Below are positions 7,600-63,385 of a stretch of DNA of 64,000 bases, piece by piece (position 1 is the first letter of the stretch; each line of letters begins with the position of its first letter). This stretch comes from Aphanomyces cochlioides (lineage: Eukaryota > Oomycota > Saprolegniomycetes > Saprolegniales > Verrucalvaceae). The translations under genes were made by a program, and so were the position numbers. The notes beneath the pieces are model-generated. The model was not told the DNA's origin and ran no database searches. It saw only the letters and a list, made by a program, of their open reading frames with translations. Location: assembly GCA_019828595.1 (NCBI GenBank), contig JAHQRK010000033.1, forward strand, positions 434,001 to 498,000. Reading direction: 5' to 3'.

Positions 7600-7602
7600 C
7601 AG

Positions 7603-31566: not shown

Positions 31567-31576
31567 TTAACTGAGT

Positions 31577-32118
31577 GATGATTAACGCTTACGCGGTGTC
31601 CGCTTAAACCGACTACGAATGAAAGGGGAGTTCGCATGCGTGCAGCCACACTCCCGGTGAAAAACCTCTGCAAGGACCAGAATAGGCCTCCCAGGAGGAA
31701 AACCAGGAAGTGTCCTAAATGGGAGACCCAAAATAGGACATCAAGTATGGCTGGCCAGTGTGGCCTTGGCGCTTGGACATCAGCTACAGCGGCGATCTCG
31801 GAATTCTTCCTGGTTCGTAGCCATGGGTAATGGGATGTATCCTGGCTTGACGTATGACCATTGGGATTGATGTAAGACGTCTTCGCGGGTCAGTAAGCGT
31901 GGGAACATTGAGCTTCGACCATCACAACGTCTTGTTCTTCGCACCCCAGAGATGTACGGTCGCGGAGTGATTCAAAGCGGTGATGCCGGTAACATAGTCT
32001 TCAGACACGTCGGAGACACTGACAGGCTAAGAACAAAGGCAACGAAGTGCCAGGAGGAAGAGGTCGGCGGGGCCGTCCCTCCTCCTCCCGGGAGGGAGTT
32101 ACCCCAACCCACCAAAAA
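31577..32118 (+). mobile_element. Element F: 542-bp insertion in the LINE C copy 1 tail
   Basis: The insert is absent from copies 2 and 3 and flanked by an 11-bp duplication GTTAACTGAGT (31566-31576 and 32119-32129). Its + strand ends in AAAAA, so it may be a short retroposon (SINE or truncated LINE tail). It contains a C/G-rich hairpin-like stretch near 32080 (CCTCCTCCCGGGAGG). I found no convincing A/B-box promoter and no ORF. Confidence 0.65.
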
Positions 32119-32169
32119 GTTAACTGAGTATATTAAAGAATTAATATGGCCCAAAAGGGCCGCAAACTA

Positions 32170-33792: not shown

Positions 33793-33794
33793 TA

Positions 33795-38600: not shown

Positions 38601-39746
38601 TAGGACTTTTTTCCTGTCATGGTATTCATGTATGGCAGCTTGAATTGTTTTGATACGTGCCATCAAGGACGCACATGGGGCGTTTTGGTAATCCCGAATC
38701 AATAAAGCCAAATCCATAGATAATTTCTTGAGAGGCCTTTGTTGATTTTCGACCAACTCGTCGTGTAGGTATTTTAATTGATTTCGCATGTTGGTGATCA
38801 TGGTGTCGAAATGTAGACCAACATTTGAGTTTAATTGGGTCTTGGTAAGGAAGGTTTCAAGTTGACGAGAGATAATGAATTTGGCCTTGTCATTGTTGAG
38901 AACCCATTGTGGTGTTTTCCATGGACCAGGTCCCATTGATACTGCTGGACGTTTGGTCAATAATTTGCAGGGAGTGTGGTCAGCATGAGGAATTAGTTCC
39001 AGGTGACGAAATTTCAGATGACGTAGGGATGCCATAGCAGACGAGATGAAAATATAGTCAAGCCGATTGACAAATTTTGGACTTGTGAAAGCACGTTTCA
39101 GTGGATTTTGTTGACGGAAAATGTCAACGAGGTGTAAATCTTGTAGCCATAGGTTGAGTTCATATGAGCCATGAGTCGCATGAGTCGAAGGACGGCATGA
39201 ATCTAATGTTGGGGAGAAAATAACGTTAAAGTCGCCACCAACAATATGAAAAGCTTCGGGTGGAAAATCGCGAGGCAGATCATTAAAAAAATCCACACGG
39301 TCGTGATAGTCGTACGGAGCATAGATGTTGTGAATAAAAACCGGGATATTGTCCAGAGTGGCCGATATAAGTAAATAACGACCACGGAGGAGAGGTTTGT
39401 CCCAAGAGTGGTTTAAATTGGTGCAATTGTCCAGAGGGCAGTCAGGATGAATAAATGTAGCAAGGCCTCCAGTAGGATGAGAGGTATTGCTGATGGAATA
39501 AATTGGCTCCTCGTAGAAGAAAGTGCCTTGTTGGTTGGTATGTTTTTTCCAGTAGAAATTGATTTTGCCATGGTCGCTGGGGTAAGGCAGTCGAGTTTCT
39601 TGGATAAGTGAGATAGAGTTTTTGAGGAGAAAGTTCTTGAGAAGGTGGTGGAAAGAGTTGGAGAGACCATTTGTGTTGAGAGAAAACAAGCTAATATCCC
39701 AGTCGATAATGGCTTGTGGTAGCGCGTTAATTGTGGTCACGGTCAT
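35661..39746 (-). CDS. LINE C copy 1 ORF2: APE endonuclease-reverse transcriptase
   Basis: 1361 codons, uninterrupted. Endonuclease (about residues 15-260): Asn24 in SLNTNG, Glu50 in IQETR, HNIYAPY, Asp172 and Asn174 in GGDFNV, Asp230 in NRLDYIF, and Asp256-His257 in HADHTP. RT (about 540-800): NYRPISLVN, Asp626 in LLDFEKAFDR, QGDPLSPLLF, and YADD at 725-728. A C-terminal C-x2-C-x7-H-x4-C knuckle (CIFCHEVETYKHFTLDC) lies near residue 1210, typical of L1/Tx1-type LINEs. It would nick the tRNA gene and reverse transcribe the LINE RNA there. It begins 100 nt after the ORF1 stop. All visible catalytic residues are present. Confidence 0.95.
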   Translation of the reverse strand: MTVTTINALPQAIIDWDISLFSLNTNGLSNSFHHLLKNFLLKNSISLIQETRLPYPSDHGKINFYWKKHTNQQGTFFYEEPIYSISNTSHPTGGLATFIHPDCPLDNCTNLNHSWDKPLLRGRYLLISATLDNIPVFIHNIYAPYDYHDRVDFFNDLPRDFPPEAFHIVGGDFNVIFSPTLDSCRPSTHATHGSYELNLWLQDLHLVDIFRQQNPLKRAFTSPKFVNRLDYIFISSAMASLRHLKFRHLELIPHADHTPCKLLTKRPAVSMGPGPWKTPQWVLNNDKAKFIISRQLETFLTKTQLNSNVGLHFDTMITNMRNQLKYLHDELVENQQRPLKKLSMDLALLIRDYQNAPCASLMARIKTIQAAIHEYHDRKKVLREDTAMQTHLEKAERCTKFHLKPPRTIPLQKSPFKALKMSNGNIASDQQSISSTLHEFYSDLYGDHEAVDKERMAKYLKTLISRRLNIDDKRFIGAPLTANEFYFAIKHSKRNSTPGPNSLPYEILKMFPHEWSLALEMLYYYQINSHSNLAPSQLTSLIVLLYKKDDKLLPKNYRPISLVNIDVKILTMVLAERMQRIIQSIVHPDQTGFIRGRSIQTNLLRLEDLNHFMKFYSSESIVALLDFEKAFDRVNHSYLLATLKEFNFPPSFLNMVKVLYSNRRGRIIVNGHLSNPFKIQRGVLQGDPLSPLLFVLALEPMCLAIRKRKDLGIRIGHHTHTGSYYADDSQLYSKNTSTLQLQLDIVKKFCDISGFKLNLSKTELLTHANLPPDLAPLAITDDKPAKSLGLLISPNITATTRLNSLLEKLVSRTQLWSYRARTLPGKVTILRSICFPVLWYQLQFIPIDKEYAKLFDKVAKQFIHGDTIDPYSTQRYLHQFNSDIIFLPKAQGGLGFKSSTHWWSKLHRVMTFKCFKLLLAPPHNSYGQTKLPAWLSIGEYLLSRAFSPWGNFYDLLFMSPHSSMYKAISHQDKVPPLWSAFTRLWLSLSPTPLKFPTVQVDGNFPLWHNQFLPLEKTVFEHCYPKTYDYAVSLAKLNFTHVRHLLDENGNLMDRKILLDWIKSQCSRRHLATPDHKWWYALHGRLKSILPSPPEDTEINFRQPTPYRQTATEITWAGNFKDGFLPFIDATLDDLTHEFKSKSAQEVLPTAHLLVPSDFYAHKENIKVVAFYRQPKFILPTYSAFIYRLLIRALPLRYKFKYSDDIPNTCIFCHEVETYKHFTLDCPYTRACWSPFKSMARSLNFTWPTTMEKIFFSPIALQDKDLQAGFNLLWPIFLSCIWYTIWKTRCDRIYRPDLPNKTPMTISSLAGHIIKRHLYQVNRASLDDSTKASLTSVLHSLHQNEWFSAQILPQSQNETLEP

Positions 39747-39846
39747 GATTAATATTTGGGTTTTGATTTTTTGACTTCAAGTCGTTGTGTTGGTTTGGGT
39801 CGGGGTGTGGTGATTGTGGTTTTAATTGATTTTGTGTGTTGGCGAG

Positions 39847-42372
39847 TCAATTGGAGTCTGCATTGTCACCATCGCCAAGTTCTTTGTAGTCGAGTTCAGG
39901 AGCCTTTTCGTCCGGAAGTAAAGTTAACAAGGCATCAGTATCCGAGTCAAAACACTTCGTAGGGTCAATTGTTTGGAGTGCCAGATCTTTCACAATATGG
40001 CTCAACTCTTCTTCAATTTTATGATGTTGCACCAGGTTTCCAGCAGCAGGACTGGAAATTAATTTAATCAAGGAGGCGTCCGTGATTAAATTGCAATTGG
40101 GCCAACGGTGGACTTTGTCTTTCAGGCACAGATTAATATACTCATCGTTCGTATAAGCTTCAGGTGCTCTGTTGGACAGAAATAGATCGATTGCTGCTAG
40201 AGATCTTCTCATGTGGTAGTCTTCGTCATTTGGACACAAACTTTGGAATAGATTTGTGGGGCTGTAATTTTCAGGAGGAGGATGGCCATGCTGTTTTTGG
40301 TAGTACGAGGTAAATCGTTCTTCATCAATAGCTTGCATGGGATTTTCTCCAGCCATTAAACGTATAATTCCTCTCGAGGCAATTAAATTGGATGCGATTT
40401 TGCGAGATTTTGGGTCCATATAGATATTTCCAATAAAGCCAGGTTGGTTGAGGGTTTCATCATGAAATACCAATGGGTTGGTAGATTCATTCAGTTTTTT
40501 CTTCAGCTCTGTGATTTGAGCCTTCACTTTGGCTCCTGCTGGTTTCGTAGAGGCTGGAATTTTTTTGGGTATCGTTGATTTTGGGGACGAAGCAGGACGT
40601 TTTTTGGGCGTGTCGGTAGGAACGATATCAAGATGGAATCGAGGAACCGTTGTGCCTGAAGTTGTCACGTCAGAGTCGTCTGAGCTGAGGATAGCGAATC
40701 GATTTTGTGTTGGAATCGAGGTAGCTGATATTTTGTATTGGGGACCTTGAATAAAACCGGCTCGAGTTGGTTTAAATTCGTCCTGGGATAAATTGGGTTT
40801 GTCTGTGAGAATAATATTATTCTCGCTCGAGCCCTTGGGTGATTGTGGAGGATTTAATATCTTCTTGGGTTGAGCTACCATTTCTTCCTCTTCGATATTT
40901 GATTTCTCTTCTTGTTCCATGTCCACATCGCTTGACAGGTCGACAAAGTTTTCCTTGCCATTTTGATTTTCCTTGGGATCGGCATTAGGGGATTCGGAGT
41001 TTCCAGTTGTGCCAGTATTTTCCTTCGGGGTGTTGGGTGGTTGGTTTTCTGTCGATGGATTTTCGGGAGCATCAGTTTTTTCCTCTGTAGCGTTTTCCTC
41101 GACATGGTCTGTATTCTTTTTAGCGTCGTCTTTTTGTTTGGCTTTTTCCAGTCTAGCTTGAACGCTGGGAGGGACCGTTTGATTGAGGGACCGAATTTTA
41201 TGTTGAAAAACATAAACTTGGTTTTGGATCTCGATTTCTCTCAGAGGCTCGCCTCCATCATCTGGTACCAATGCCAAAGGAGGAGTTTCGGAGTCAAAAA
41301 GGACTCGAAATTGGGTCGAGCGTAATAAATTGTCAGTACTGGGGTTAAAACCAACAATGACGCAGTGAGTGAGCTCTTCCAACTTTTTCAAAATCGCTTT
41401 TTGAATATCGTGATCCACCAGGTTGTTGAAAGTAATAAAATAAAGTTTCGAGTGGGGAGAATATTCAGGCACAGTAAATTCTTGTTTTCCCAGACGAAGG
41501 GAGGTTCCACAAGTTTTGCGCAATAGATCATCGTCATAAAACGTCAAAGAGAGAGTAGTCGGGTTTTTCTTGTGGAACAGAATTTCCTTGAATTTCGATT
41601 CCCAAAGCGTACCCGGGTTTTGGGTAATTAAATTCGCTCGGATTTGGTAGTCCTTGACTTGACGGAAAGCTTCTCCCAGAGGAATGTCCACAGTGCAAGC
41701 CTTCGAGGATGGAGTTTTCAAGATGTCTTCAATGAATTCATCCATAGCAGTAGGGTTTTGGCGGAATTCTCGAGCTTGTCGAATTAATTCTTCCAATTCA
41801 GAGTCGTCAATGGGATGCCCACCAGTGTTGCGAACCAATTGGGTTTTCACATGGCGGGCTCCTTCCCATACATTATTTTTCTTCGAGTTGGTTTTTTTGC
41901 CTTCGTTGTTGGACGAAGCTTGTTTTTTGGGGTTGGAGGGTTTGGCAGGAGAGTTTGTCCCATCTTTGGAGGGATTTTTCGAATTAGGTAAAACTCGTCC
42001 ATGAGGGGTGCCGTCAGGATGGGTAATATTCTCCCCAGGCTTGTCAGAATCCTTGAGTAATTTGCCACCATTGGCGTCAGAGGCAGGTTTTTCGTTGGAA
42101 CCATTAATATCCATACCCATTCCTGCATCATCGGGTCCATTTTTTTTGTCCATATTTGGACCAGTGTCACCACCTAAGTCAACACCATCTTGGTTGGAAA
42201 CATTTTCCCTACGAAGAGAGTCGGACGCAGCGGCGCTGTTCCTAGAGGAAGGAGGTTTTTCAGCGGCTTCTCGGCTCGGACCGGGCGTCGCTTGGCTAGG
42301 GTCAGGCGTCGATTCACGTTGAGCGAATCGAGACACCGTCGAAAGGATGGTTTTTTCCGCGCTAGAGGCCAT
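39847..42372 (-). CDS. LINE C copy 1 ORF1
   Basis: 841 codons from ATG 42372 (MASSAEKTILSTVSRF), 81 nt from the element 5' end. Residues 1-165 are disordered and N/K/P/D-rich. Residues about 170-400 form a folded core (ELEELIRQAREF, TLWESKFKEILF, YFITFNNLVDHDIQKAIL) that might be an RNA-binding fold. 410-560 is an acidic low-complexity linker. 600-841 is a second folded part (KKLNESTNPLVFHDE ... NYSPTNLFQSLCPND). No CCHC knuckle is seen. Presumed role: binding LINE RNA with ORF2p; target choice could also involve it. I do not recognise a named domain. Confidence 0.88.
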   Translation of the reverse strand: MASSAEKTILSTVSRFAQRESTPDPSQATPGPSREAAEKPPSSRNSAAASDSLRRENVSNQDGVDLGGDTGPNMDKKNGPDDAGMGMDINGSNEKPASDANGGKLLKDSDKPGENITHPDGTPHGRVLPNSKNPSKDGTNSPAKPSNPKKQASSNNEGKKTNSKKNNVWEGARHVKTQLVRNTGGHPIDDSELEELIRQAREFRQNPTAMDEFIEDILKTPSSKACTVDIPLGEAFRQVKDYQIRANLITQNPGTLWESKFKEILFHKKNPTTLSLTFYDDDLLRKTCGTSLRLGKQEFTVPEYSPHSKLYFITFNNLVDHDIQKAILKKLEELTHCVIVGFNPSTDNLLRSTQFRVLFDSETPPLALVPDDGGEPLREIEIQNQVYVFQHKIRSLNQTVPPSVQARLEKAKQKDDAKKNTDHVEENATEEKTDAPENPSTENQPPNTPKENTGTTGNSESPNADPKENQNGKENFVDLSSDVDMEQEEKSNIEEEEMVAQPKKILNPPQSPKGSSENNIILTDKPNLSQDEFKPTRAGFIQGPQYKISATSIPTQNRFAILSSDDSDVTTSGTTVPRFHLDIVPTDTPKKRPASSPKSTIPKKIPASTKPAGAKVKAQITELKKKLNESTNPLVFHDETLNQPGFIGNIYMDPKSRKIASNLIASRGIIRLMAGENPMQAIDEERFTSYYQKQHGHPPPENYSPTNLFQSLCPNDEDYHMRRSLAAIDLFLSNRAPEAYTNDEYINLCLKDKVHRWPNCNLITDASLIKLISSPAAGNLVQHHKIEEELSHIVKDLALQTIDPTKCFDSDTDALLTLLPDEKAPELDYKELGDGDNADSN

Positions 42373-42453
42373 GACGTTGTCGAAAGCACCTAAAAAGCAA
42401 GATTTTCCGTTGGGGGGCTGTGGTAGTTTAACCTACAAAGCAAAAACGAAAGT

Positions 42454-43957: not shown

Positions 43958-44029
43958 TGCGCCTGCCGGGAGTCGAACCCGGGATGTCACGGCCACAACG
44001 TGAAGTACTGACCACTATACTACAGACGC
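43958..44029 (-). tRNA. tRNA-His(GUG), unit 2
   Basis: Identical to the unit 1 copy at 31448-31519, with T5 terminator at 43951-43955 and a G at -1. Confidence 0.93.
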
Positions 44030-44030
44030 C

Positions 44031-44076
44031 TGGAGAAGCAGGGTATCGATCCCTGTACCTCCCGCATGCTAAGCGG
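44031..44076 (-). tRNA. tRNA-Ala(AGC) 3' half, unit 2
   Basis: Nucleotides 28-73, identical to 31521-31566. The 5' half lies at 53307-53351 across LINE C copy 2. The first 18 bases on the minus strand (CCGCTTAGCATGCGGGAG) are the TSD. Confidence 0.88.
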
Positions 44077-46513
44077 TTAACTGAGTATATTAAAGAATTA
44101 ATATGGCCCAAAAGGGCCGCAAACTAGACTTTCGATTTTGGCTTCATAGGTCGCATAATAAATATGTGTTGCGAAATGTGACCTTGGAAGGTTCTTGTGG
44201 AAAATCGTCCAGTGTTGCTTAACCGAAATAGACTTGGGTGTGGGGTAATTTGGAGGAACCATGGCAGAAAGAAAATGTTGCATGGCGATTCAGGCTGTGA
44301 AAAAATTCAACAGTATAGAGAAGAGCCATACAAGCAACTTTCTTTTCATGACCATCTTGATCCGAGTTGGTGGTGGCGAGATACGAGGCAATTTCGGGTT
44401 GACTGTGGAGGACTTGAAAATTTGTATACAAAAGTCTTGATAAAAATTCCAAGTGGAGGTACGCAGTGAAAAAGGCCAAGTAAATAAAAGCTTGAGTTGG
44501 GGTCGATCCATGAATAAATAAATCGACAGGAGAGGAAGGCCAAAAATTGACAAAAGGGTCGAAACAGAGTAAAATCAGGCCCAAGGAAAATAAATTGGCA
44601 AGAGGTAGGAGCCCAAAAAATCCAAAAAGGTCGTGGCCAATTTAATTCGACCTCAGGAGGCCGAATTAAATCGCTGTAACCATGGGAAAAGCTGGGTTTG
44701 AGAGAAAAGACCATCCAAAATAAAATGTTCTTGGACGATTTGACCAGCCAAAAAAATCAACGAGGTCGGTCGTTCCATGACAAGCAAAGTTGATTTCAGG
44801 AGCGTCTTCATCGGAGTTGATGGTGGCGAGATAGAGGGAAAATCCCTTGTGGGTTGGGCTTTTGGGGTAAACCTCCCAAAAATAATAAAAAAGGGTAAAA
44901 TATTTGGGAGGAGCCATTTTGACATGCGCCATGGGCGGATAGGTCTCGAGCGCGAGCATCGTCGGAGCTGGATTTCGAACGGCGCCGCGGTGCATGGAGC
45001 CACTTGGCAGAATCGTAGCGACGATACGTACGAAGGATAGCGCACCATTAGAATCGCCATAGGTAGTGTGTAGCGGGAGAGCGCTAGCCAAAACCAGTGT
45101 TTTTTCCAATCGGGCGTCTCGGCGGCCAAATTTGAAGGAGTCATAACTTCCGAACGGCTATGAGATAGATAGCCATACTTGGTGTCCTCCATCAATGGAG
45201 GCTAGCGGTGGATGCACCATATTAATCGGTGCATATAGAGTCGTGTAGCTGAAATGAGCTACGATGGTCGTTTTGGAGCCTTATCGGCTCAAAATGGTTT
45301 GGAATCGGAAGTTGGGTTCCTGTGCTGCTATCATGGTGCTTGATAGCTCAAATCCATCGCGAGGACATTCTCGAGCCTCTCCAACTCTAAGTTGGGCGAT
45401 CGGAGTTGATTTGCGTTCAGGAGCCATTCCGATGAGTTTTAGCCATTTCACCAAAAGTTGTCGGGGCGACGGCAAGTAGGTTCCAGGGCTTCAATCATCG
45501 CTCTTGATGGCTTAAAACACTCGTCTAGCCATGATAGGATGGAAAAGAGTCATAGCCGGTCGATTGGAAATGATTTGCGACCTGTAGCCGACTTAAGGTT
45601 TTGTAGCCGGTGGATAGGGGCGGTTGACATTTTGGATTGAGGATTGCGAGCAAACCAGGATGTTTCAGGGCGTTCTAACGCTTTGGCTAGTCGTAATAAG
45701 TGGTGGAGCCACCCACTAGACCCCTAGATGTCACTCGGTGACCGTAGGGAAAGCGTTCGAGTTGTCCTGGTGTTTCACCGGTTTGGGTGACAGTCCAAAA
45801 TGGGTTCGTGGTTTTGAACCATAGATCTGCAATATGTGCTAGTTGGTGTCGGCATAGAGCTCGATTCAACTGAGATAACAAGCCACTAAACGTAGAAATC
45901 CACGCAGTAGGTCGAGAGAAATTTCACTTTTGGTGACGGGTTGAAACCGGTTCAAAATGGGTGTCACCGGGTCGAATTTCCTTTCGAATTTTGTTTCGCG
46001 AGTTTGGCGAGGTTTGAGCACTCGCAAACTGGCACATCTTGAGGAGGAGACATGGGAGAATCTTTTAGGCACCGTGGCGCAATTTTCCCGAACAAAAAGT
46101 GTGCACTCGATTTTGAGATTTCGCCCCCAGGGGGAGACGTCGTAACAATTTTCAAAGTGTTGTTGTGAGAGAACCACTGCACTTTTTTGCAATCTAACGC
46201 TTGCGTTTGTCTGCTTGGGATGTCTAGCAACCCTGAAGACCATTAGAATGTCTGAAATGATCGTCAGAGCAATGCCAGAGTTGTCGATAGTTTTGCCATT
46301 TTGGGTGAACGGATAAAGTCAAGTCGATTTTGTGAACGACTCGGCATGAGATAAAGTTACTTGGTGTGTCCATAGAGCTCTGTTAGCTGGGGCTAACGAG
46401 CCATCAAACGCATGAAAAGGCCAAGTGGGTCGCGAGAAAATCCACTTTGAGTTTTCCCATTGGTTTGGGTGACTTAGGTGAATTTCTTCAAAGGTTGCAA
46501 TATAACATGCCTT
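44077..46513 (-). other. LINE C copy 2 3' UTR (2.44 kb)
   Basis: Unusually long for a LINE. Holds overlapping ORFs of 120-180 codons (44219-45195) that also appear in copy 3 but are changed in copy 1. Contains the 484-bp block 45241-45724, in which two halves resemble each other (GGTTCCTGTGCTGCTATCATGG around 45325 and GGTTCCAGGGCTTCAATCATCG around 45480). Ends with a GC hairpin and the TAATATACTCA motif shared with element D. Confidence 0.6.
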
Positions 46514-49500
46514 TTAAGGTTCCAAGGTCTCGTTTTGAGATTGTGGTAAGATTTGGGCAGAGAACCACTCATTCTGGTGCAAACTATGAAGCACCGATGT
46601 CAAGGAAGCCTTCGTGGAGTCGTCCAAGGAGGCTCGATTGACTTGGTACAGATGCCGCTTTATAATGTGTCCTGCTAAGCTGGATATCGTCATAGGTGTT
46701 TTGTTAGGTAAATCTGGACGGTAAATCCGGTCGCACCGAGTTTTCCATATTGTATACCAAATACAAGATAAAAAAATTGGCCACAGCAAATTAAATCCAG
46801 CTTGGAGGTCTTTGTCTTGGAGTGCTATAGGAGAGAAGAATATTTTTTCCATGGTAGTTGGCCAAGTAAAGTTAAGGGATCTGGCCATGGATTTAAATGG
46901 ACTCCAACATGCTCGAGTATATGGACAGTCCAAGGTGAAATGTTTATACGTCTCCACTTCATGACAGAAAATACAAGTGTTCGGGATATCGTCCGAGTAC
47001 TTGAATTTGTATCGGAGAGGTAAGGCTCGTATAAGCAGTCGATATATGAAAGCACTATACGTTGGCAGAATAAATTTGGGCTGCCTGTAGAATGCGACCA
47101 CTTTAATATTTTCCTTGTGGGCATAAAAATCCGAGGGTACCAATAAATGCGCTGTGGGTAAAACCTCCTGAGCTGATTTGGATTTAAATTCATGAGTTAA
47201 ATCATCCAAGGTGGCATCAATAAAGGGTAAAAAGCCATCTTTAAAATTTCCAGCCCAAGTAATTTCGGTAGCCGTTTGCCGATAAGGTGTAGGCTGACGA
47301 AAATTAATTTCTGTGTCCTCGGGTGGAGATGGAAGGATAGACTTAAGTCTTCCGTGTAGAGCATACCACCATTTATGATCGGGAGTGGCTAAATGGCGTC
47401 TTGAGCATTGAGATTTAATCCAATCTAACAGGATTTTCCGATCCATAAGATTGCCATTTTCATCGAGTAGGTGGCGAACATGGGTAAAATTTAATTTTGC
47501 CAGTGATACAGCATAATCATAAGTCTTTGGATAGCAGTGTTCAAAGACAGTTTTCTCCAAGGGTAAGAATTGATTGTGCCAAAGTGGAAAATTTCCATCG
47601 ACTTGAACTGTGGGAAATTTAAGTGGGGTTGGAGATAAGGATAACCATAGTCGAGTAAATGCTGACCAGAGAGGTGGAACCTTATCTTGGTGGGATATGG
47701 CTTTGTACATACTAGAGTGTGGACTCATGAAAAGGAGATCATAAAAATTTCCCCATGGACTGAAGGCTCTGGAGAGTAAATATTCTCCAATGGATAGCCA
47801 TGCTGGCAATTTCGTTTGACCATACGAGTTGTGAGGTGGTGCTAGGAGTAGCTTGAAGCATTTAAAGGTCATGACCCGGTGTAGTTTTGACCACCAGTGG
47901 GTAGACGATTTAAATCCGAGACCACCTTGTGCTTTTGGAAGGAAAATAATGTCCGAGTTGAATTGATGCAAATAACGTTGAGTCGAATATGGATCAATTG
48001 TATCGCCGTGAATAAATTGCTTGGCGACCTTGTCGAATAGTTTGGCATATTCTTTGTCGATCGGAATAAATTGGAGTTGATACCAGAGCACAGGAAAACA
48101 AATTGACCTTAGGATTGTCACTTTTCCGGGTAGGGTTCGTGCTCGATAAGACCATAGTTGTGTTCTTGAGACCAATTTCTCCAATAGCGAATTTAAACGT
48201 GTTGTGGCTGTGATGTTGGGAGAAATTAAAAGGCCCAACGATTTAGCAGGTTTGTCATCAGTAATAGCCAAAGGTGCCAGGTCTGGAGGTAAATTGGCAT
48301 GGGTTAATAATTCTGTCTTGGAGAGATTTAACTTGAAACCAGAGATATCACAGAATTTTTTGACGATGTCGAGTTGGAGTTGCAACGTCGATGTATTTTT
48401 GGAGTACAATTGGGAGTCGTCTGCATAATAGCTCCCGGTGTGAGTGTGATGACCAATTCGTATGCCCAAATCTTTTCTCTTGCGTATGGCTAAACACATA
48501 GGTTCTAGCGCCAAGACAAATAAAAGAGGTGATAATGGGTCGCCTTGTAAAACACCACGTTGGATCTTAAATGGGTTGGATAAATGTCCATTGACAATAA
48601 TTCGTCCACGACGATTTGAATAAAGCACTTTGACCATGTTGAGAAAGGACGGTGGAAAATTAAATTCCTTCAGGGTTGCCAATAAATAGGAATGGTTGAC
48701 CCTATCAAAGGCTTTTTCAAAGTCCAAGAGGGCCACAATAGACTCGGAGGAATAAAACTTCATAAAGTGATTCAGGTCTTCCAAGCGCAGTAAATTGGTT
48801 TGGATTGATCGACCACGAATAAAACCTGTTTGATCCGGGTGGACTATCGACTGAATGATTCTCTGCATTCGTTCTGCAAGGACCATTGTGAGGATTTTCA
48901 CGTCGATATTGACCAAGCTGATGGGACGGTAATTTTTTGGGAGTAGTTTGTCGTCCTTTTTGTACAGCAGTACAATTAAACTTGTCAATTGGGAGGGTGC
49001 CAAGTTGGAGTGAGAGTTGATTTGGTAATAGTATAGCATTTCCAAAGCCAGGGACCATTCATGGGGAAACATTTTCAAAATTTCGTAGGGCAGTGAATTT
49101 GGCCCAGGAGTTGAATTCCGTTTGGAGTGTTTAATGGCAAAATAAAATTCGTTTGCCGTGAGAGGAGCCCCAATAAATCTCTTGTCGTCGATATTGAGTC
49201 GGCGAGATATCAGAGTTTTTAAATACTTGGCCATTCTTTCCTTGTCAACTGCCTCATGGTCGCCATACAGGTCAGAATAAAACTCGTTGAGTGTCGAGGA
49301 AATTGATTGTTGATCAGAAGCAATATTTCCATTGGACATTTTGAGTGCCTTGAAGGGAGATTTTTGTAAAGGGATTGTGCGAGGTGGCTTCAGGTGAAAT
49401 TTGGTACACCTTTCCGCTTTCTCGAGATGAGTTTGCATAGCAGTATCTTCCCGTAGGACTTTTTTCCTGTCATGGTATTCATGTATGGCAGCTTGAATTG

Positions 49501-50599
49501 TTTTGATACGTGCCATCAAGGACGCACATGGGGCGTTTTGGTAATCCCGAATCAATAAAGCCAAATCCATAGATAATTTCTTGAGAGGCCTTTGTTGATT
49601 TTCGACCAACTCGTCGTGTAGGTATTTTAATTGATTTCGCATGTTGGTGATCATGGTGTCGAAATGTAGACCAACATTTGAGTTTAATTGGGTCTTGGTA
49701 AGGAAGGTTTCAAGTTGACGAGAGATAATTAATTTGGCCTTGTCATTGTTGAGAACCCATTGTGGTGTTTTCCATGGACCAGGTCCCATTGATACTGATG
49801 GACGTTTGGTCAATAATTTGCAGGGAGTGTGGTCAGCATGAGGAATTGGTTCCAGGTGACGAAATTTCAGATGACGTAGGGATGCCATAGCAGATGAGAT
49901 GAAAATATAGTCAAGCCGATTGACAAATTTTGGACTTGTGAAAGCACGTTTCAGTGGATTTTGTTGACGGAAAATGTCAACGAGGTGTAAATCTTGTAGC
50001 CATAGGTTGAGTTCATATGAGCCATGGGTCGCATGAGTCGAAGGACGGCATGAATCTAATGTTGGGGAGAAAATAACGTTAAAGTCGCCACCAACAATAT
50101 GAAAAGCTTCGGGTGGAAAATCGCGAGGCAGATCATTAAAAAAATCCACACGGTCGTGATAGTCGTACGGAGCATAGATGTTGTGAATAAAAACCGGGAT
50201 ATTGTCCAGAGTGGCCGATATAAGTAAATAACGACCACGGAGGAGAGGTTTGTCCCAAGAGTGGTTTAAATTGGTGCAATTGTCCAGAGGGCAGTCAGGA
50301 TGAATAAATGTAGCAAGGCCTCCAGTAGGATGAGAGGTATGGCTGATGGAATAAATTGGCTCCTCGTAGAAGAAAGTGCCTTGTTGGTTGGTATGTTTTT
50401 TCCAGTAGAAATTGATTTTGCCATGGTCGCTGGGGTAAGGCAGTCGAGTTTCTTGGATAAGTGAGATAGAGTTTTTGAGGAGAAAGTTCTTGAGAAGGTG
50501 GTGGAAAGAGTTGGAGAGACCATTTGTGTTGAGAGAAAACAAGCTAATATCCCAGTCGATAATGGCTTGTGGTAGCGCGTTAATTGTGGTCACGGTCAT
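46514..50599 (-). CDS. LINE C copy 2 ORF2: APE endonuclease-reverse transcriptase
   Basis: 1361 codons, open, with the same motifs as copy 1. Amino-acid differences from copy 1 include N87H, L251P (next to the HADH endonuclease motif), A268S, F290L and H438N. L251P, A268S and H438N are private to this copy. None touches a catalytic residue, so an active enzyme is plausible. Confidence 0.95.
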   Translation of the reverse strand: MTVTTINALPQAIIDWDISLFSLNTNGLSNSFHHLLKNFLLKNSISLIQETRLPYPSDHGKINFYWKKHTNQQGTFFYEEPIYSISHTSHPTGGLATFIHPDCPLDNCTNLNHSWDKPLLRGRYLLISATLDNIPVFIHNIYAPYDYHDRVDFFNDLPRDFPPEAFHIVGGDFNVIFSPTLDSCRPSTHATHGSYELNLWLQDLHLVDIFRQQNPLKRAFTSPKFVNRLDYIFISSAMASLRHLKFRHLEPIPHADHTPCKLLTKRPSVSMGPGPWKTPQWVLNNDKAKLIISRQLETFLTKTQLNSNVGLHFDTMITNMRNQLKYLHDELVENQQRPLKKLSMDLALLIRDYQNAPCASLMARIKTIQAAIHEYHDRKKVLREDTAMQTHLEKAERCTKFHLKPPRTIPLQKSPFKALKMSNGNIASDQQSISSTLNEFYSDLYGDHEAVDKERMAKYLKTLISRRLNIDDKRFIGAPLTANEFYFAIKHSKRNSTPGPNSLPYEILKMFPHEWSLALEMLYYYQINSHSNLAPSQLTSLIVLLYKKDDKLLPKNYRPISLVNIDVKILTMVLAERMQRIIQSIVHPDQTGFIRGRSIQTNLLRLEDLNHFMKFYSSESIVALLDFEKAFDRVNHSYLLATLKEFNFPPSFLNMVKVLYSNRRGRIIVNGHLSNPFKIQRGVLQGDPLSPLLFVLALEPMCLAIRKRKDLGIRIGHHTHTGSYYADDSQLYSKNTSTLQLQLDIVKKFCDISGFKLNLSKTELLTHANLPPDLAPLAITDDKPAKSLGLLISPNITATTRLNSLLEKLVSRTQLWSYRARTLPGKVTILRSICFPVLWYQLQFIPIDKEYAKLFDKVAKQFIHGDTIDPYSTQRYLHQFNSDIIFLPKAQGGLGFKSSTHWWSKLHRVMTFKCFKLLLAPPHNSYGQTKLPAWLSIGEYLLSRAFSPWGNFYDLLFMSPHSSMYKAISHQDKVPPLWSAFTRLWLSLSPTPLKFPTVQVDGNFPLWHNQFLPLEKTVFEHCYPKTYDYAVSLAKLNFTHVRHLLDENGNLMDRKILLDWIKSQCSRRHLATPDHKWWYALHGRLKSILPSPPEDTEINFRQPTPYRQTATEITWAGNFKDGFLPFIDATLDDLTHEFKSKSAQEVLPTAHLLVPSDFYAHKENIKVVAFYRQPKFILPTYSAFIYRLLIRALPLRYKFKYSDDIPNTCIFCHEVETYKHFTLDCPYTRACWSPFKSMARSLNFTWPTTMEKIFFSPIALQDKDLQAGFNLLWPIFLSCIWYTIWKTRCDRIYRPDLPNKTPMTISSLAGHIIKRHLYQVNRASLDDSTKASLTSVLHSLHQNEWFSAQILPQSQNETLEP

Positions 50600-50699
50600 G
50601 ATTAATATTTGGGTTTTGATTTTTTGACTTCAAGTCGTTGTGTTGGTTTGGGTCGGGGTGTGGTGATTGTGGTTTTAATTGATTTTGTGTGTTGGCGAG

Positions 50700-53225
50700 T
50701 CAATTGGAGTCTGCATTGTCACCATCGCCAAGTTCTTTGTAGTCGAGTTCAGGAGCCTTTTCGTCCGGAAGTAAAGTTAACAAGGCATCAGTATCCGAGT
50801 CAAAACACTTCGTAGGGTCAATTGTTTGGAGTGCCAGATCTTTCACAATATGGCTCAACTCTTCTTCAATTTTATGATGTTGCACCAGGTTTCCAGCAGC
50901 AGGACTGGAAATTAATTTAATCAAGGAGGCGTCCGTGATTAAATTGCAATTGGGCCAACGGTGGACTTTGTCTTTCAGGCACAGATTAATATACTCATCG
51001 TTCGTATAAGCTTCAGGTGCTCTGTTGGACAGAAATAGATCGATTGCTGCTAGAGATCTTCTCATGTGGTAGTCTTCGTCATTTGGACACAAACTTTGGA
51101 ATAGATTTGTGGGGCTGTAATTTTCAGGAGGAGGATGGCCATGCTGTTTTTGGTAGTACGAGGTAAATCGTTCTTCATCAATAGCTTGCATGGGATTTTC
51201 TCCAGCCATTAAACGTATAATTCCTCTCGAGGCAATTAAATTGGATGCGATTTTGCGAGATTTTGGGTCCATATAGATATTTCCAATAAAGCCAGGTTGG
51301 TTGAGGGTTTCATCATGAAATACCAATGGGTTGGTGGATTCATTCAGTTTTTTCTTCAGCTCTGTGATTTGAGCCTTCACTTTGGCTCCTGCTGGTTTCG
51401 TAGAGGCTGGAATTTTTTTGGGTATCGTTGATTTTGGGGACGAAGCAGGACGTTTTTTGGGCGTGTCGGTAGGAACGATATCAAGATGGAATCGAGGAAC
51501 CGTTGTGCCTGATGTTGTCACGTCAGAGTCGTCTGAGCTGAGGATAGCGAATCGATTTTGTGTTGGAATCGAGGTAGCTGATATTTTGTATTGGGGACCT
51601 TGAATAAAACCGGCTCGAGTTGGTTTAAATTCGTCCTGGGATAAATTGGGTTTGTCTGTGAGAATAATATTATTCTCGCTCGAGCCCTTGGGTGATTGTG
51701 GAGGATTTAATATCTTCTTGGGTTGAGCTACCATTTCTTCCTCTTCGATATTTGATTTCTCCTCTTGTTCCATGTCCACATCGCTTGACAGGTCGACAAA
51801 GTTTTCCTTGCCATTTTGATTTTCCTTGGGATCGGCATTAGGGGATTCGGAGTTTCCAGTTGTGCCAGTATTTTCCTTCGGGGTGTTGGGTGGTTGGTTT
51901 TCTGTCGATGGATTTTCGGGAGCATCAGTCTTTTCCTCTGTAGCGTTTTCCTCGACATGGTCTGTATTCTTTTTAGCGTCGTCTTTTTGTTTGGCTTTTT
52001 CCAGTCTAGCTTGAACGCTGGGAGGGACCGTTTGATTGAGGGACCGAATTTTATGTTGAAAAACATAAACTTGGTTTTGGATCTCGATTTCTCTCAGAGG
52101 CTCGCCTCCATCATCTGGTACCAATGCCAAAGGAGGAGTTTCGGAGTCAAAAAGGACTCGAAATTGGGTCGAGCGTAATAAATTGTCAGTACTGGGGTTA
52201 AAACCAACAATGACGCAGTGAGTGAGCTCTTCCAACTTTTTCAAAATCGCTTTTTGAATATCGTGATCCACCAGGTTGTTGAAAGTAATAAAATAAAGTT
52301 TCGAGTGGGGAGAATATTCAGGCACAGTAAATTCTTGTTTTCCCAGACGAAGGGAGGTTCCACAAGTTTTGCGCAATAGATCATCGTCATAAAACGTCAA
52401 AGAGAGAGTAGTCGGGTTTTTCTTGTGGAACAGAATTTCCTTGAATTTCGATTCCCAAAGCGTACCCGGGTTTTGGGTAATTAAATTCGCTCGGATTTGG
52501 TAGTCCTTGACTTGACGGAAAGCTTCTCCCAGAGGAATGTCCACAGTGCAAGCCTTCGATGATGGAGTTTTCAAGATGTCTTCAATGAATTCATCCATAG
52601 CAGTAGGGTTTTGGCGGAATTCTCGAGCTTGTCGAATTAATTCTTCCAATTCAGAGTCGTCAATGGGATGCCCACCAGTGTTGCGAACCAATTGGGTTTT
52701 CACATGGCGGGCTCCTTCCCAGACATTATTTTTCTTCGAGTTGGTTTTTTTGCCTTCGTTGTTGGACGAAGCTTGTTTTTTGGGGTTGGAGGGTTTGGCA
52801 GGAGAGTTTGTCCCATCTTTGGAGGGATTTTTCGAATTAGGTAAAACTCGTCCATGAGGGGTGCCGTCAGGATGGGTAATATTCTCCCCAGGCTTGTCAG
52901 AATCCTTGGGTAATTTGCCACCATTGGCGTCAGAGGCAGGTTTTTCGTTGGAACCATTAATATCCATACCCATTCCTGCATCATCGGGTCCATTTTTTTT
53001 GTCCATATTTGGACCAGTGTCACCACCTAAGTCAACACCATCTTGGTTGGAAACATTTTCCCTACGAAGAGAGTCGGACGCAGCGGCGCTGTTCCTAGAG
53101 GAAGGAGGTTTTTCAGCGGCTTCTCGGCTCGGACCGGGCGTCGCTTGGCTAGAGTCAGGCGTCGATTCACGTTGAGCGAATCGAGACACCGTCGAAAGGA
53201 TGGTTTTTTCCGCGCTAGAGGCCAT
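50700..53225 (-). CDS. LINE C copy 2 ORF1
   Basis: 841 codons, open, from ATG 53225. Same organisation as copy 1. Differences include P25S (private) and L106P (shared with copy 3). Confidence 0.88.
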   Translation of the reverse strand: MASSAEKTILSTVSRFAQRESTPDSSQATPGPSREAAEKPPSSRNSAAASDSLRRENVSNQDGVDLGGDTGPNMDKKNGPDDAGMGMDINGSNEKPASDANGGKLPKDSDKPGENITHPDGTPHGRVLPNSKNPSKDGTNSPAKPSNPKKQASSNNEGKKTNSKKNNVWEGARHVKTQLVRNTGGHPIDDSELEELIRQAREFRQNPTAMDEFIEDILKTPSSKACTVDIPLGEAFRQVKDYQIRANLITQNPGTLWESKFKEILFHKKNPTTLSLTFYDDDLLRKTCGTSLRLGKQEFTVPEYSPHSKLYFITFNNLVDHDIQKAILKKLEELTHCVIVGFNPSTDNLLRSTQFRVLFDSETPPLALVPDDGGEPLREIEIQNQVYVFQHKIRSLNQTVPPSVQARLEKAKQKDDAKKNTDHVEENATEEKTDAPENPSTENQPPNTPKENTGTTGNSESPNADPKENQNGKENFVDLSSDVDMEQEEKSNIEEEEMVAQPKKILNPPQSPKGSSENNIILTDKPNLSQDEFKPTRAGFIQGPQYKISATSIPTQNRFAILSSDDSDVTTSGTTVPRFHLDIVPTDTPKKRPASSPKSTIPKKIPASTKPAGAKVKAQITELKKKLNESTNPLVFHDETLNQPGFIGNIYMDPKSRKIASNLIASRGIIRLMAGENPMQAIDEERFTSYYQKQHGHPPPENYSPTNLFQSLCPNDEDYHMRRSLAAIDLFLSNRAPEAYTNDEYINLCLKDKVHRWPNCNLITDASLIKLISSPAAGNLVQHHKIEEELSHIVKDLALQTIDPTKCFDSDTDALLTLLPDEKAPELDYKELGDGDNADSN

Positions 53226-53306
53226 GACGTTGTCGAAAGCACCTAAAAAGCAAGATTTTCCGTTGGGGGGCTGTGGTAGTTTAACCTACAAAGCAAAAAC
53301 GAAAGT

Positions 53307-53351
53307 CTCCCGCATGCTAAGCGGGCGCTCTACCATCTGAGCTACATCCCC
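53307..53351 (-). tRNA. tRNA-Ala(AGC) 5' half, unit 2
   Basis: Nucleotides 1-45, the version with ATGG in the D loop and two extra bases (AG) retained before the LINE 5' end. Together with 44031-44076, minus one TSD copy, it restores a 73-nt tRNA-Ala(AGC) with one T-T mismatch in the acceptor stem. Confidence 0.88.
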
Positions 53352-54154: not shown

Positions 54155-56591
54155 TTAACTGAGTATATTAAAGAATTAATATGGCCCAAAAGGGCCGCAA
54201 ACTAGACTTTCGATTTTGGCTTCATAGGTCGCATAATAAATATGTGTTGCGAAATGTGACCTTGGAAGGTTCTTGTGGAAAATCGTCCAGTGTTGCTTAA
54301 CCGAAATAGACTTGGGTGTGGGGTAATTTGGAGGAACCATGGCAGAAAGAAAATGTTGCATGGCGATTCAGGCTGTGAAAAAATTCAAGAGTATAGAGAA
54401 GAGCCATACAAGCAACTTTCTTTTCATGACCATCTTGATCCGAGTTGGTGGTGGCGAGATACGAGGCAATTTCGGGTTGACTGTGGAGGACTTGAAAATT
54501 TGTATACAAAAGTCTTGATAAAAATTCCAAGTGGAGGTACGCAGTGAAAAAGGCCAAGTAAATAAAAGCTTGAGTTGGGGTCGATCCATGAATAAATAAA
54601 TCGACAGGAGAGGAAGGCCAAAAATTGACAAAAGGGTCGAAACAGAGTAAAATCAGGCCCAAGGAAAATAAATTGGCAAGAGGTAGGAGCCCAAAAAATC
54701 CAAAAAGGTCGTGGCCAATTTAATTCGACCTCAGGAGGCCGAATTAAATCGCTGGAACCATGGGAAAAGCTGGGTTTGAGAGAAAAGACCATCCAAAATA
54801 AAATGTTCTTGGACGATTTGACCAGCCAAAAAAATCAACGAGGTCGGTCGTTCCATGACAAGCAAAGTTGATTTCAGGAGCGTCTTCGTCGGAGTTGAAG
54901 GTGGCGAGATAGAGGGAAAATCCCTTGTGGGTTGGGCTTTTGGGGTAAACCTCCCAAAAATAATAAAAAAGGGTAAAATATTTGGGAGGTGCCATTTTGA
55001 CATGCGCCATGCGCGGATAGGTCTCGAGCGCGAGCATCGTCGGAGCTGGATTTCGAACGGCGCCGCGGTGCATGGAGCCACTTGGCAGAATCGTAGCGAC
55101 GATACGTACGAAGGATAGCGCACCATTAGAATCGCCATAGGTAGTGTGTAGCGGGAGAGCGCTAGCCAAAACCAGTGGTTTTTCCAATCGGGCGTCTCGG
55201 CGGCCAAATTTGAAGGAGTCATAACTTCCGAACGGCTATGAGATAGATAGCCATACTTGGTGTCCTCCATCAATGGAGGCTAGCGGTGGATGCACCATAT
55301 TAATCGGTGCATATAGAGTCGTGTAGCTGAAATGAGCTACGATGGTCGTTTTGGAGCCTTATCGGCTCAAAATGGTTTGGAATCGGAAGTTGGGTTCCTG
55401 TGCTGCTATCATGGTGCTTGATAGCTCAAATCCATCGCGAGGACATTCTCGAGCCTCTCCAACTCTAAGTTGGGCGATCGGAGTTGATTTGCGTTCAGGA
55501 GCCATTCCGATGAGTTTTAGCCATTTCACCAAAAGTTGTCGGGGCGACGGCAAGTAGGTTCCAGGGCTTCAATCATCGCTCTTGATGGCTTAAAACACTC
55601 GTCTAGCCATGATAGGATGGAAAAGAGTCATAGCCGGTCGATAGGAAATGATTTGCGACCTGTAGCCGACTTAAGGTTTTGTAGCCGGTGGATAGGGGCG
55701 GTTGACATTTTGGATTGAGGATTGCGAGCAAACCAGGATGTTTCAGGGCGTTCTAACGCTTTGGCTAGTCGTAATAAGTGGTGGAGCCACCCACTAGACC
55801 CCTAGATGTCACTCGGTGACCGTAGGGAAAGCGTTCGAGTTGTCCTGGTGTTTCACCGGTTTGGGTGACAGTCCAAAATGGGTTCGTGGTTTTGAACCAT
55901 AGATCTGCAATATGTGCTAGTTGGTGTCGGCATAGAGCTCGATTCAACTGAGATAACAAGCCACTAAACGTAGAAATCCACGCAGTAGGTCGAGAGAAAT
56001 TTCACTTTTGGTGACGGGTTGAAACCGGTTCAAAATGGGTGTCACCGGGTCGAATTTCCTTTCGAATTTTGTTTCGCGAGTTTGGCGAGGTTTGAGCACT
56101 CGCAAACTGGCACATCTTGAGGAGGAGACATGGGAGAATCTTTTAGGCACCGTGGCGCAATTTTCCCGAACAAAAAGTGTGCACTCGATTTTGAGATTTC
56201 GCCCCCAGGGGGAGACGTCGTAACAATTTTCAAAGTGTTGTTGTGAGAGAACCACTGCACTTTTTTGCAATCTAACGCTTGCGTTTGTCTGCTTGGGATG
56301 TCTAGCAACCCTGATGACCATTAGAATGTCTGAAATGATCGTCAGAGCAATGCCAGAGTTGTCGATAGTTTTGCCATTTTGGGTGAACGGATAAAGTCAA
56401 GTCGATTTTGTGAACGACTCGGCATGAGATAAAGTTACTTGGTGTGTTCATAGAGCTCTGTTAGCTGGGGCTAACGAGCCATCAAACGCATGAAAAGGCC
56501 AAGTGGGTCGCGAGAAAATCCACTTTGAGTTTTCCCATTGGTTTGGGTGACTTAGGTGAATTTCTTCAAAGGTTGCAATATAACATGCCTT
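54155..56591 (-). other. LINE C copy 3 3' UTR
   Basis: Same layout as in copy 2 (484-bp block at 55319-55802). No additional insertion. Confidence 0.6.
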
Positions 56592-59500
56592 TTAAGGTTC
56601 CAAGGTCTCGTTTTGAGATTGTGGTAAGATTTGGGCAGAGAACCACTCATTCTGGTGCAAACTATGAAGCACCGATGTCAAGGAAGCCTTCGTGGAGTCG
56701 TCCAAGGAGGCTCGATTGACTTGGTACAGATGCCGCTTTATAATGTGTCCTGCTAAGCTGGATATCGTCATAGGTGTTTTGTTAGGTAAATCTGGACGGT
56801 AAATCCGGTCGCACCGAGTTTTCCAAATTGTATACCAAATACAAGATAAAAAAATTGGCCACAGCAAATTAAATCCAGCTTGGAGGTCTTTGTCTTGGAG
56901 TGCTATAGGAGAGAAGAATATTTTTTCCATGGTAGTTGGCCAAGTAAAGTTAAGGGATCTGGCCATGGATTTAAATGGACTCCAACATGCTCGAGTATAT
57001 GGACAGTCCAAGGTGAAATGTTTATACGTCTCCACTTCATGACAGAAAATACAAGTGTTCGGGATATCGTCCGAGTACTTGAATTTGTATCGGAGAGGTA
57101 AGGCTCGTATAAGCAGTCGATATATGAAAGCACTATACGTTGGCAGAATAAATTTGGGCTGCCTGTAGAATGCGACCACTTTAATATTTTCCTTGTGGGC
57201 ATAAAAATCCGAGGGTACCAATAAATGCGCTGTGGGTAAAACCTCCTGAGCTGATTTGGATTTAAATTCATGAGTTAAATCATCCAAGGTGGCATCAATA
57301 AAGGGTAAAAAGCCATCTTTAAAATTTCCAGCCCAAGTAATTTCGGTAGCCGTTTGCCGATAAGGTGTAGGCTGACGAAAATTAATTTCTGTGTCCTCGG
57401 GTGGAGATGGAAGGATAGACTTAAGTCTCCCGTGTAGAGCATACCACCATTTATGATCGGGAGTGGCTAAATGGCGTCTTGAGCATTGAGATTTAATCCA
57501 ATCTAACAGGATTTTCCGATCCATAAGATTGCCATTTTCATCGAGTAGGTGGCGAACATGGGTAAAATTTAATTTTGCCAGTGATACAGCATAATCATAA
57601 GTCTTTGGATAGCAGTGTTCAAAGACAGTTTTCTCCAAGGGTAAGAATTGATTGTGCCAAAGTGGAAAATTTCCATCGACTTGAACTGTGGGAAATTTAA
57701 GTGGGGTTGGAGATAAGGATAACCATAGTCGAGTAAATGCTGACCAGAGAGGTGGAACCTTATCTTGGTGGGATATGGCTTTGTACATACTAGAGTGTGG
57801 ACTCATGAAAAGGAGATCATAAAAATTTCCCCATGGACTGAAGGCTCTGGAGAGTAAATATTCTCCAATGGATAGCCATGCTGGCAATTTCGTTTGACCA
57901 TACGAGTTGTGAGGTGGTGCTAGGAGTAGCTTGAAGCATTTAAAGGTCATGACCCGGTGTAGTTTTGACCACCAGTGGGTAGACGATTTAAATCCGAGAC
58001 CACCTTGTGCTTTTGGAAGGAAAATAATGTCCGAGTTGAATTGATGCAAATAACGTTGAGTCGAATATGGATCAATTGTATCGCCGTGAATAAATTGCTT
58101 GGCGACCTTGTCGAATAGTTTGGCATATTCTTTGTCGATCGGAATAAATTGGAGTTGATACCAGAGCACAGGAAAACAAATTGACCTTAGGATTGTCACT
58201 TTTCCGGGTAGGGTTCGTGCTCGATAAGACCATAGTTGTGTTCTTGAGACCAATTTCTCCAATAGCGAATTTAAACGTGTTGTGGCTGTGATGTTGGGAG
58301 AAATTAAAAGGCCCAACGATTTAGCAGGTTTGTCATCAGTAATAGCCAAAGGTGCCAGGTCTGGAGGTAAATTGGCATGGGTTAATAATTCTGTCTTGGA
58401 GAGATTTAACTTGAAACCAGAGATATCACAGAATTTTTTGACGATGTCGAGTTGGAGTTGCAACGTCGATGTATTTTTGGAGTACAATTGGGAGTCGTCT
58501 GCATAATAGCTCCCGGTGTGAGTGTGATGACCAATTCGTATGCCCAAATCTTTTCTCTTGCGTATGGCTAAACACATAGGTTCTAGCGCCAAGACAAATA
58601 AAAGAGGTGATAATGGGTCGCCTTGTAAAACACCACGTTGGATCTTAAATGGGTTGGATAAATGTCCATTGACAATAATTCGTCCACGACGATTTGAATA
58701 AAGCACTTTGACCATGTTGAGAAAGGACGGTGGAAAATTAAATTCCTTCAGGGTTGCCAATAAATAGGAATGGTTGACCCTATCAAAGGCTTTTTCAAAG
58801 TCCAAGAGGGCCACAATAGACTCGGAGGAATAAAACTTCATAAAGTGATTCAGGTCTTCCAAGCGCAGTAAATTGGTTTGGATTGATCGACCACGAATAA
58901 AACCTGTTTGATCCGGGTGGACTATCGACTGAATGATTCTCTGCATTCGTTCTGCAAGGACCATTGTGAGGATTTTCACGTCGATATTGACCAAGCTGAT
59001 GGGACGGTAATTTTTTGGGAGTAGTTTGTCGTCCTTTTTGTACAGCAGTACAATTAAACTTGTCAATTGGGAGGGTGCCAAGTTGGAGTGAGAGTTGATT
59101 TGGTAATAGTATAGCATTTCCAAAGCCAGGGACCATTCATGGGGAAACATTTTCAAAATTTCGTAGGGCAGTGAATTTGGCCCAGGAGTTGAATTCCGTT
59201 TGGAGTGTTTAATGGCAAAATAAAATTCGTTTGCCGTGAGAGGAGCCCCAATAAATCTCTTGTCGTCGATATTGAGTCGGCGAGATATCAGAGTTTTTAA
59301 ATACTTGGCCATTCTTTCCTTGTCAACTGCCTCATGGTCGCCATACAGGTCAGAATAAAACTCGTGGAGTGTCGAGGAAATTGATTGTTGATCAGAAGCA
59401 ATATTTCCATTGGACATTTTGAGTGCCTTGAAGGGAGATTTTTGTAAAGGGATTGTGCGAGGTGGCTTCAGGTGAAATTTGGTACACCTTTCCGCTTTCT

Positions 59501-60677: not shown

Positions 60678-60777
60678 GATTAATATTTGGGTTTTGATTT
60701 TTTGACTTCAAGTCGTTGTGTTGGTTTGGGTCGGGGTGTGGTGATTGTGGTTTTAATTGATTTTGTGTGTTGGCGAG

Positions 60778-63304: not shown

Positions 63305-63385
63305 GACGTTGTCGAAAGCACCTAAAAAGCAAGATTTTCCGTTGGGGGGCTGTGGTAGTTTAACCTACAAAGCAAAAACGAAAGT

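Follow-up and report, generated by a model that had tools for sequence, protein, structure and literature searches.

What does an intact retrotransposon lodged inside a transfer RNA (tRNA) gene represent: the trace of a chance event, or the residence of an element that is directed to such genes? The question is raised by a 64,000-nucleotide stretch of the genome of the oomycete Aphanomyces cochlioides (assembly GCA_019828595.1, contig JAHQRK010000033.1, positions 434,001 to 498,000; hereafter 'the window'), in which a long interspersed nuclear element (LINE), referred to here as copy 2, occupies 44077..53306 on the minus strand, between the two halves of a gene for tRNA-Ala(AGC). We conclude, with considerable though not complete confidence, that it is a site-specific LINE of the apurinic/apyrimidinic endonuclease (APE) type and the L1 group that inserts preferentially into the tRNA anticodon arm and is resident in tandem tRNA arrays. 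A sequence-only reading of the window had placed the element between nucleotides 1-45 and 28-73 of the tRNA, had identified its target duplication with the anticodon stem-loop, and had described it as full length, with both open reading frames (ORFs) open and without a poly-A tail; each of these points was borne out, the junctions having been read and then re-cut by coordinate. The 9,230-bp element is flanked on either side by an 18-bp duplication, CCGCTTAGCATGCGGGAG, at 53324..53307 and 44076..44059. The 5' half of the gene (nucleotides 1-45) lies at 53307..53351, positions 53307-53324 being the upstream copy of the duplication, and the 3' half (nucleotides 28-73) lies at 44031..44076, with the downstream copy at 44059-44076, both on the minus strand. 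Given that the anticodon AGC stands at nucleotides 34-36, the duplication spans nucleotides 28-45, which is the anticodon arm. The 3' terminus of the element reads ATATACTCAGTTAA, without poly-A, and its 5' junction reads GGGAG and then ACTTTC, versus GGGA and then CTTTC in the two other copies in the window (copies 1 and 3), a difference of two bases.

The class of the element is indicated by ORF2 (46514..50599, minus strand; 1361 residues), in which an APE endonuclease is followed by a reverse transcriptase and a C-terminal zinc-knuckle-like region. The protein matches the Pfam family RVT_1 (7.3e-39), aligns over residues 120-849 with human L1 ORF2p (7.8e-66, PDB), and matches the L1 endonuclease (1.2e-8, PDB), while the Pfam family Exo_endo_phos is weak on its own (E 0.0037, 17.5 bits, under the 24.5 cut-off); the zf-RVT match (PF13966) is likewise sub-threshold (E 2.4e-5, 25.4 bits versus a 27.5 cut-off), and the motif CX2CX7HX4C was spotted by eye. 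This domain order assigns the element, at the level of predicted protein, to the APE-type LINEs of the L1 group, and an APE at the N terminus of ORF2 does not fit the restriction-like endonuclease (RLE) type represented by R2 and NeSL, an RLE not having been searched for separately. ORF1 (50700..53225, minus strand; 841 residues) is open and has no Pfam match at 1e-3. A C-terminal piece of a different element, LINE A (509 residues), matches ORF2 weakly (2e-7 over 80 residues), and no relative was found in a viral contig set.

The case for site specificity is carried by the distribution of copies across the genome. A 31-nucleotide pattern from the 3' end (three or fewer mismatches) matched 133 places, with none for a reversed control, and a 31-nucleotide pattern from the 5' end matched 64, again with none for its control, so that about half of the copies extend to the 5' end. 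For part of the 102 3'-end places listed among the 133, flanking sequences were taken, with different contigs preferred over array repeats, and 51 of the 79 3' flanks so classed by reading proved to be tRNA 3' halves: 19 from Ala(AGC/CGC), 12 from Val, 7 from Ala(TGC), 6 from Asp (one degraded), 3 from Thr, and one each that is Phe-like, Arg-like, Thr-like or without an assigned type. The remainder comprise three tRNA-Ala-like relics, four 5S ribosomal RNA (rRNA) genes, and 21 flanks, from 18 sites, that are none of these. When 22 of 25 flank pairs (the pairs being not all independent, and the other three being without a 3' flank) were joined across the element, ARAGORN called a tRNA in 11, namely Ala(AGC), Ala(CGC), Ala(TGC), Val(GAC) and Thr(AGT); of two truncated copies, one was called as Ala(TGC) and the Arg-like one was uncalled. 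The 3' flanks of copies at C25:463980 and on contigs C34 and C59 were not found at the places guessed for them, and L135 contained no flank. The Asp 3' halves are identical to the 3' part of intact tRNA-Asp genes detected by Rfam at their own loci (L036, L037). The identity of the 5S sites was read from their 3' half and upstream flanks, given that in the Rfam 5S matches the tail of the LINE stands in for the 5' part of the gene, and that a 5' 5S flank (L097) was unmatched alone. Within that tail, GGCCATATTA matches a ten-base stretch close to where the host 5S rRNA gene begins, whether by chance or by origin, and in a register similar to that of the junction (L121, L126).

Pattern counts over the whole genome returned 61 LINE junctions versus 107 intact cores for Ala(AGC/CGC), and, for Val(GAC), 24 LINE junctions, 76 junctions with a tail like that of a short interspersed nuclear element (SINE), and 116 intact cores, the patterns being 33-36 bases long and 'intact' therefore meaning an intact core. 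At least one of the 24 Val junctions is merely a 36-nucleotide insert of tail pieces (L162), and 100 of the 107 Ala cores and 100 of the 116 Val cores were listed. On a conservative list, which omits the 5S, relic, Arg-like, Thr-like and unassigned sites and a site with a 5' flank alone, 17 of 35 loci are tRNA genes, an excess with p of about 1e-13 if tRNA genes are assumed to make up 5% of the genome, and 3e-30 if 0.5% is assumed. The proposal of the sequence-only reading, that this is a site-specific LINE of the tRNA anticodon arm, is thus supported. Checked against the condition that it had named as refuting, namely copies outside the array at random, non-tRNA sites, the proposal fared well though not without exception, many copies on other contigs lying in tRNA anticodon arms and 18 distinct sites being neither tRNA, tRNA-like nor 5S; and its account of the tRNA-Ala insertion stands, although it had missed the tandem tRNA array, the use of several tRNAs and of 5S genes, and a SINE at the same site.

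Comparison of these targets yields a simple rule for the insertion point. The nick precedes CC, and falls between nucleotides 27/28 in Ala and Thr, 29/30 in Val, and 27/28 or 30/31 in Asp, the targets beginning CCGCTT in Ala, CCTTGA in Val and CCTGTC in Asp; variants are the Phe-like flank, which starts with a single C (CTGAAG), and a SINE fragment in the window, which starts with TC. Insertion after tRNA nucleotides 27-31 sets the element apart from the TRE type, which inserts a fixed distance away from the tRNA gene. The duplication is usually 15-18 bp long, with exceptions of about 11 bp (C13) and of 13 bp (the C33 5S site, L126). Among the non-tRNA sites, C occupies positions +1 and +2 in 18 of 18, of which four (L137, L141, L143 and L144) came from searches that required CC, and G at +3 and C at +4 each occur in 8 of 18. 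At the eight such sites for which both flanks are available, CC is also present on the upstream side, indicating that it is part of the target.

Several observations weigh against a LINE dedicated to tRNA genes. The 18 distinct sites that are neither tRNA, tRNA-like nor 5S are joined by a nineteenth (L096) seen by its 5' flank only; many array copies are tandem duplicates, so that raw counts overstate independent insertions; and Rfam (E 0.05), applied to 15 loci, matched four (two intact downstream tRNA-Asp genes and two 5S genes) and left 11 unmatched, among them the Phe-like, Arg-like, Thr-like, relic and degraded Asp flanks, whose names therefore rest on reading. Beyond CC, the likeness of the 18 non-tRNA sites to the tRNA target is not significant (p 0.064). 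A palindrome rule, under which both nicks would follow GG because the anticodon stem is an inverted repeat, was not supported, with GG at +9 to +18 in 8 of 18 sites against a background of 37%. The 18 sites make the specificity strong rather than absolute: most of the classed copies appear, by their flanking sequence, to lie at one kind of target, as is expected of a site-specific LINE, with that specificity relaxed at the others.

How the element finds its target can be explained in two ways. The endonuclease may read the DNA sequence around the first nick directly, as the endonucleases of R1, Tx1 and TRAS do, and the CC found at every non-tRNA site (four of them preselected for it), together with the G and C at +3 and +4 in 8 of 18 each, speaks for such reading, which could well be correct at slightly less than an even chance; the weak match to the tRNA target beyond CC and the use of very different tRNAs speak against it. 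Alternatively, the RNA polymerase III (Pol III) machinery, for example TFIIIC bound to tRNA and 5S genes, may bring the element to its target, with CC fixing the exact nick, in a manner comparable to that of Dictyostelium TRE5-A but within the gene. That tRNAs of very unlike sequence (Ala, Val, Asp and Phe-like) are used along with 5S, all of them Pol III genes, makes this a serious candidate as well, if one that falls a little short of an even bet; set against it are the 18 sites without a recognised Pol III gene, and the consideration that factors bound there would mask or distort the target DNA. Insertion into 5S genes is compatible with both explanations.

A further possibility is that the LINE has no tRNA specificity at all, and that it inserts widely, a few chance events in tRNA genes having been amplified by the tandem arrays. 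Tandem copies do exist, with periods of 1,555 bp and about 10,078 bp, and the 18 non-tRNA sites would be expected under wide insertion; this explanation nevertheless appears very improbable. ARAGORN called five tRNA types among the targets, reading adds Asp and others, several contigs are involved, and 5S genes are used as well; the position within the tRNA is near-constant; and 17 of the 35 conservative loci are tRNA genes. Four kinds of tRNA-Val 5' junction, reading GAA, GAACGA, GAATGA and GAAGGA up to the element, further indicate that tRNA-Val was probably struck more than once. A strong argument comes from identical recent copies in different tRNA types. Over 2,400 nucleotides, the ORF2 segment of the window copy (L006) is identical to 14 of 29 others, and such identical copies sit in Ala(AGC) (L012), Ala(CGC) (L014), Val (L016), Thr (L001) and a non-tRNA site (L020), these targets having been assigned by coordinates against the junctions; 28 of the 30 segments, which are the best-scoring of 40 and thus biased toward close copies, are open and free of gaps. 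Identity across different tRNAs points to one recent family with several tRNA targets. Finally, it is hardly credible that the LINE is a giant intron of the tRNA, or part of a programmed split gene, and is excised from the transcript: tRNA introns do occur in the anticodon arm, as this insert does, but that arm is duplicated, so that excision would yield a tRNA with surplus bases unless one of the copies were lost as well, the element has its own ORFs and occurs at non-tRNA sites too, and many intact cores exist.

The surroundings of copy 2 place the site-specific LINE within a repeated genomic structure. An intact tRNA-His(GTG) gene (43958..44029, minus strand) belongs to its array unit, and the next unit carries copy 3 (54155..63384, minus strand), which has tRNA-Ala halves at 63385-63428 and 54109-54154, ORF1 as two overlapping ORFs, and 99.7% identity to copy 2 over 10,080 bp. 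Copy 1 (31567..42452, minus strand) has both ORFs open and tRNA-Ala halves at 42453-42496 and 31521-31566. A 543-bp element (31577-32119), with TTAACTGAGT at either side, lies within its 3' end, a region that bears further differences. Copies 2 and 3 are spaced 10,078 bp apart; copy 1 is offset further, by 10,853 bp measured across ORF2 and by 12,510 bp measured at tRNA-His, because of extra inserts. On contig C24, intact tRNA-Ala(AGC) cores are in places spaced at 832 bp, and subtraction of that figure from 10,078 leaves 9,246 bp, a length accounted for by the element together with a single copy of the duplication; in several, though not all, of these units, the upstream flank of the tRNA is the same as that in the window. 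The arithmetic and the shared flanks together indicate that the window consists of occupied units of a tandem tRNA-Ala/tRNA-His array. Similar arrays are one of Ala(CGC) on C22, with a spacing of 646 bp, another of Ala(AGC) on C24 (664 bp) and one of Val(GAC) on C15 (unit of about 1,180-1,186 bp). The anticodon of the last, at 1.08-1.51 Mb of C15, was called GAC by ARAGORN, which is unusual in a eukaryotic Val gene. Tandem arrays of one to three tRNAs per unit are also described for Phytophthora infestans (PMC9584435). The present genome gave 22 matches to the elicitin family, a mark of oomycetes, and 14 control genomes gave none, in keeping with an oomycete host.

A possible mechanism can be built on the observed sites, duplications, recurrence across tRNAs, array context and SINE, with nick order, priming, trans-mobilisation and tolerance read from sequence. 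Target-primed reverse transcription is established for LINEs, and here the ORF2 protein would nick the bottom strand in the anticodon stem, on its 5' side and immediately ahead of CC, and the freed end, terminating in GG-3', would prime reverse transcription off the non-polyadenylated 3' tail of the LINE. The second strand would be cut about 15-18 bp further on, beyond the 3' side of the anticodon stem, so that each tRNA half keeps an anticodon arm and the gene is divided between its A and B boxes. The redundancy of the array would tolerate the loss of individual tRNA genes, unequal exchange would then multiply the occupied units, and a SINE with a similar tail would use the same site, mobilised in trans. 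Two small inserts (L114 and L162) consist of the tail, then CCGCTT, then the tail again, which hints at read-through templates that may have borne some tRNA target sequence. It is also conceivable, if unlikely, that some 45 bases at the 5' end of the LINE mimic a tRNA 3' half, with GTAGGTTAAACTAC resembling a T arm or B box and CAGCCCC complementary to the tRNA-Ala acceptor strand, such that insertion rebuilds a tRNA-like gene; were this true, the rebuilt gene could supply a Pol III promoter or a tRNA-processing signal. ARAGORN called a chimeric tRNA from the 5' half and the LINE end in three of three Ala cases and in neither of the two Thr and Val cases, which is suggestive only, as shuffled LINE ends produced 39, 69 and 75 calls per 2000 with Ala halves (2-4%), and 4 and 11 with Thr and Val.

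Additional elements were found to share these tRNA genes. In the Val array, 76 further junctions end in CTCAATAAA, and the one SINE copy that was read (L161) comprises 358 nucleotides after a duplication, CCTTGACGTGGAGAA, with a tail, GTAATATACTCAATAAA, close to that of the LINE and a head that is tRNA-Thr-like by eye but was not called by ARAGORN. In the window, a tRNA-Val(TAC) gene (7443..7600, plus strand) is broken in its anticodon arm by a 5'-truncated SINE copy of 68 nucleotides (7487..7554, plus strand), with tail AATATACTCAATAAA and duplication TCGTTTACACCGAGAA at 7471-7486 and 7555-7570, whose sequence is that of the 3' part of the L161 SINE, barring single bases. By its tail and site, the SINE is probably mobilised in trans by the LINE of tRNA-Ala or a near relative. 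A second LINE, with a broken ORF2, lies at 924-7431 on the minus strand, antisense at the 5' end and A-box region of this tRNA-Val(TAC) gene, with duplication AAATAGGAAGTGTCAGCTTGGTGTA at 899-923 and 7432-7456. All five 3' ends found for it are followed by ACACCAAGCTGAC, the antisense of tRNA-Val(TAC), and it is apparently, to judge from these flanks, a second tRNA-specific LINE. The 5' end of a third LINE, distinct in sequence, is found at 1-898 (minus strand) at the tRNA-Val duplication used by the second, so that two LINE families appear to use one site.

The sequence-only reading had also considered a LINE inside the tRNA anticodon arm to be unusual, and in the consulted portions of the open-licence PMC literature (Repbase lying outside this scope) neither an APE/L1-type LINE at a fixed site inside tRNA genes nor a tRNA-targeting member of the Tx1 clade was met. 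Site-specific LINEs of other multicopy RNA genes, often in arrays, include R2 in 28S rDNA, and Mutsu is one of 5S genes. The general statement that some lineages of retrotransposons lacking long terminal repeats (non-LTR) target tRNA genes has been made (PMC8869645), and relatives of NeSL with such specificity comprise NeSL-1_TV (tRNA-Pro), LIN15_SM (tRNA-Arg) and LIN25_SM (tRNA-Glu); these share with the present element both non-LTR character and tRNA-gene specificity, but they are treated as relatives of NeSL, an RLE group, and one tRNA is named for each, whereas the present LINE is APE/L1-like and uses several tRNAs and 5S (PMC4640811). Utopia and Keno, in U2 small nuclear RNA genes, are, like R2, similar in kind and different in target (PMC4640811). 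The Dictyostelium elements TRE5, TRE3, NLTR-A and NLTR-B are likewise APE-bearing members of the L1 clade with tRNA-gene targets, but are listed as inserting beyond the tRNA coding sequence, at distances of 2-6, 40-54 or 40-150 bp, rather than inside it, in the anticodon arm (PMC5911963). Dada DNA transposons enter many tRNAs in the region of the anticodon and close to the A box, the same two hot spots as those of the two window LINEs, and also insert in 5S genes; they differ in being DDE transposons with 6-7 bp duplications and in their opposite orientation at the anticodon (PMC8869645, PMC3706591). Dada and the LINE of the tRNA anticodon arm are a convergent case.

The element thus looks like a new variant among site-specific LINEs, and the whole looks like a tRNA-gene counterpart of the R2/rDNA system, in which an apparently recent LINE and a similar-tailed SINE share one structural position of several tRNAs, within large tandem tRNA arrays, and the LINE uses 5S genes too. 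In some tRNA gene sets at least a third of the cores are occupied (61 of 168 for Ala and 100 of 216 for Val), and two questions become testable: how Pol III genes come to be targeted by an APE-type LINE, and how a genome tolerates such an insertion load. Interest in site-specific LINEs extends to their use as tools for gene insertion. Together with Dada, these elements suggest that unrelated mobile elements repeatedly find a safe harbour in the anticodon arm and the A box.

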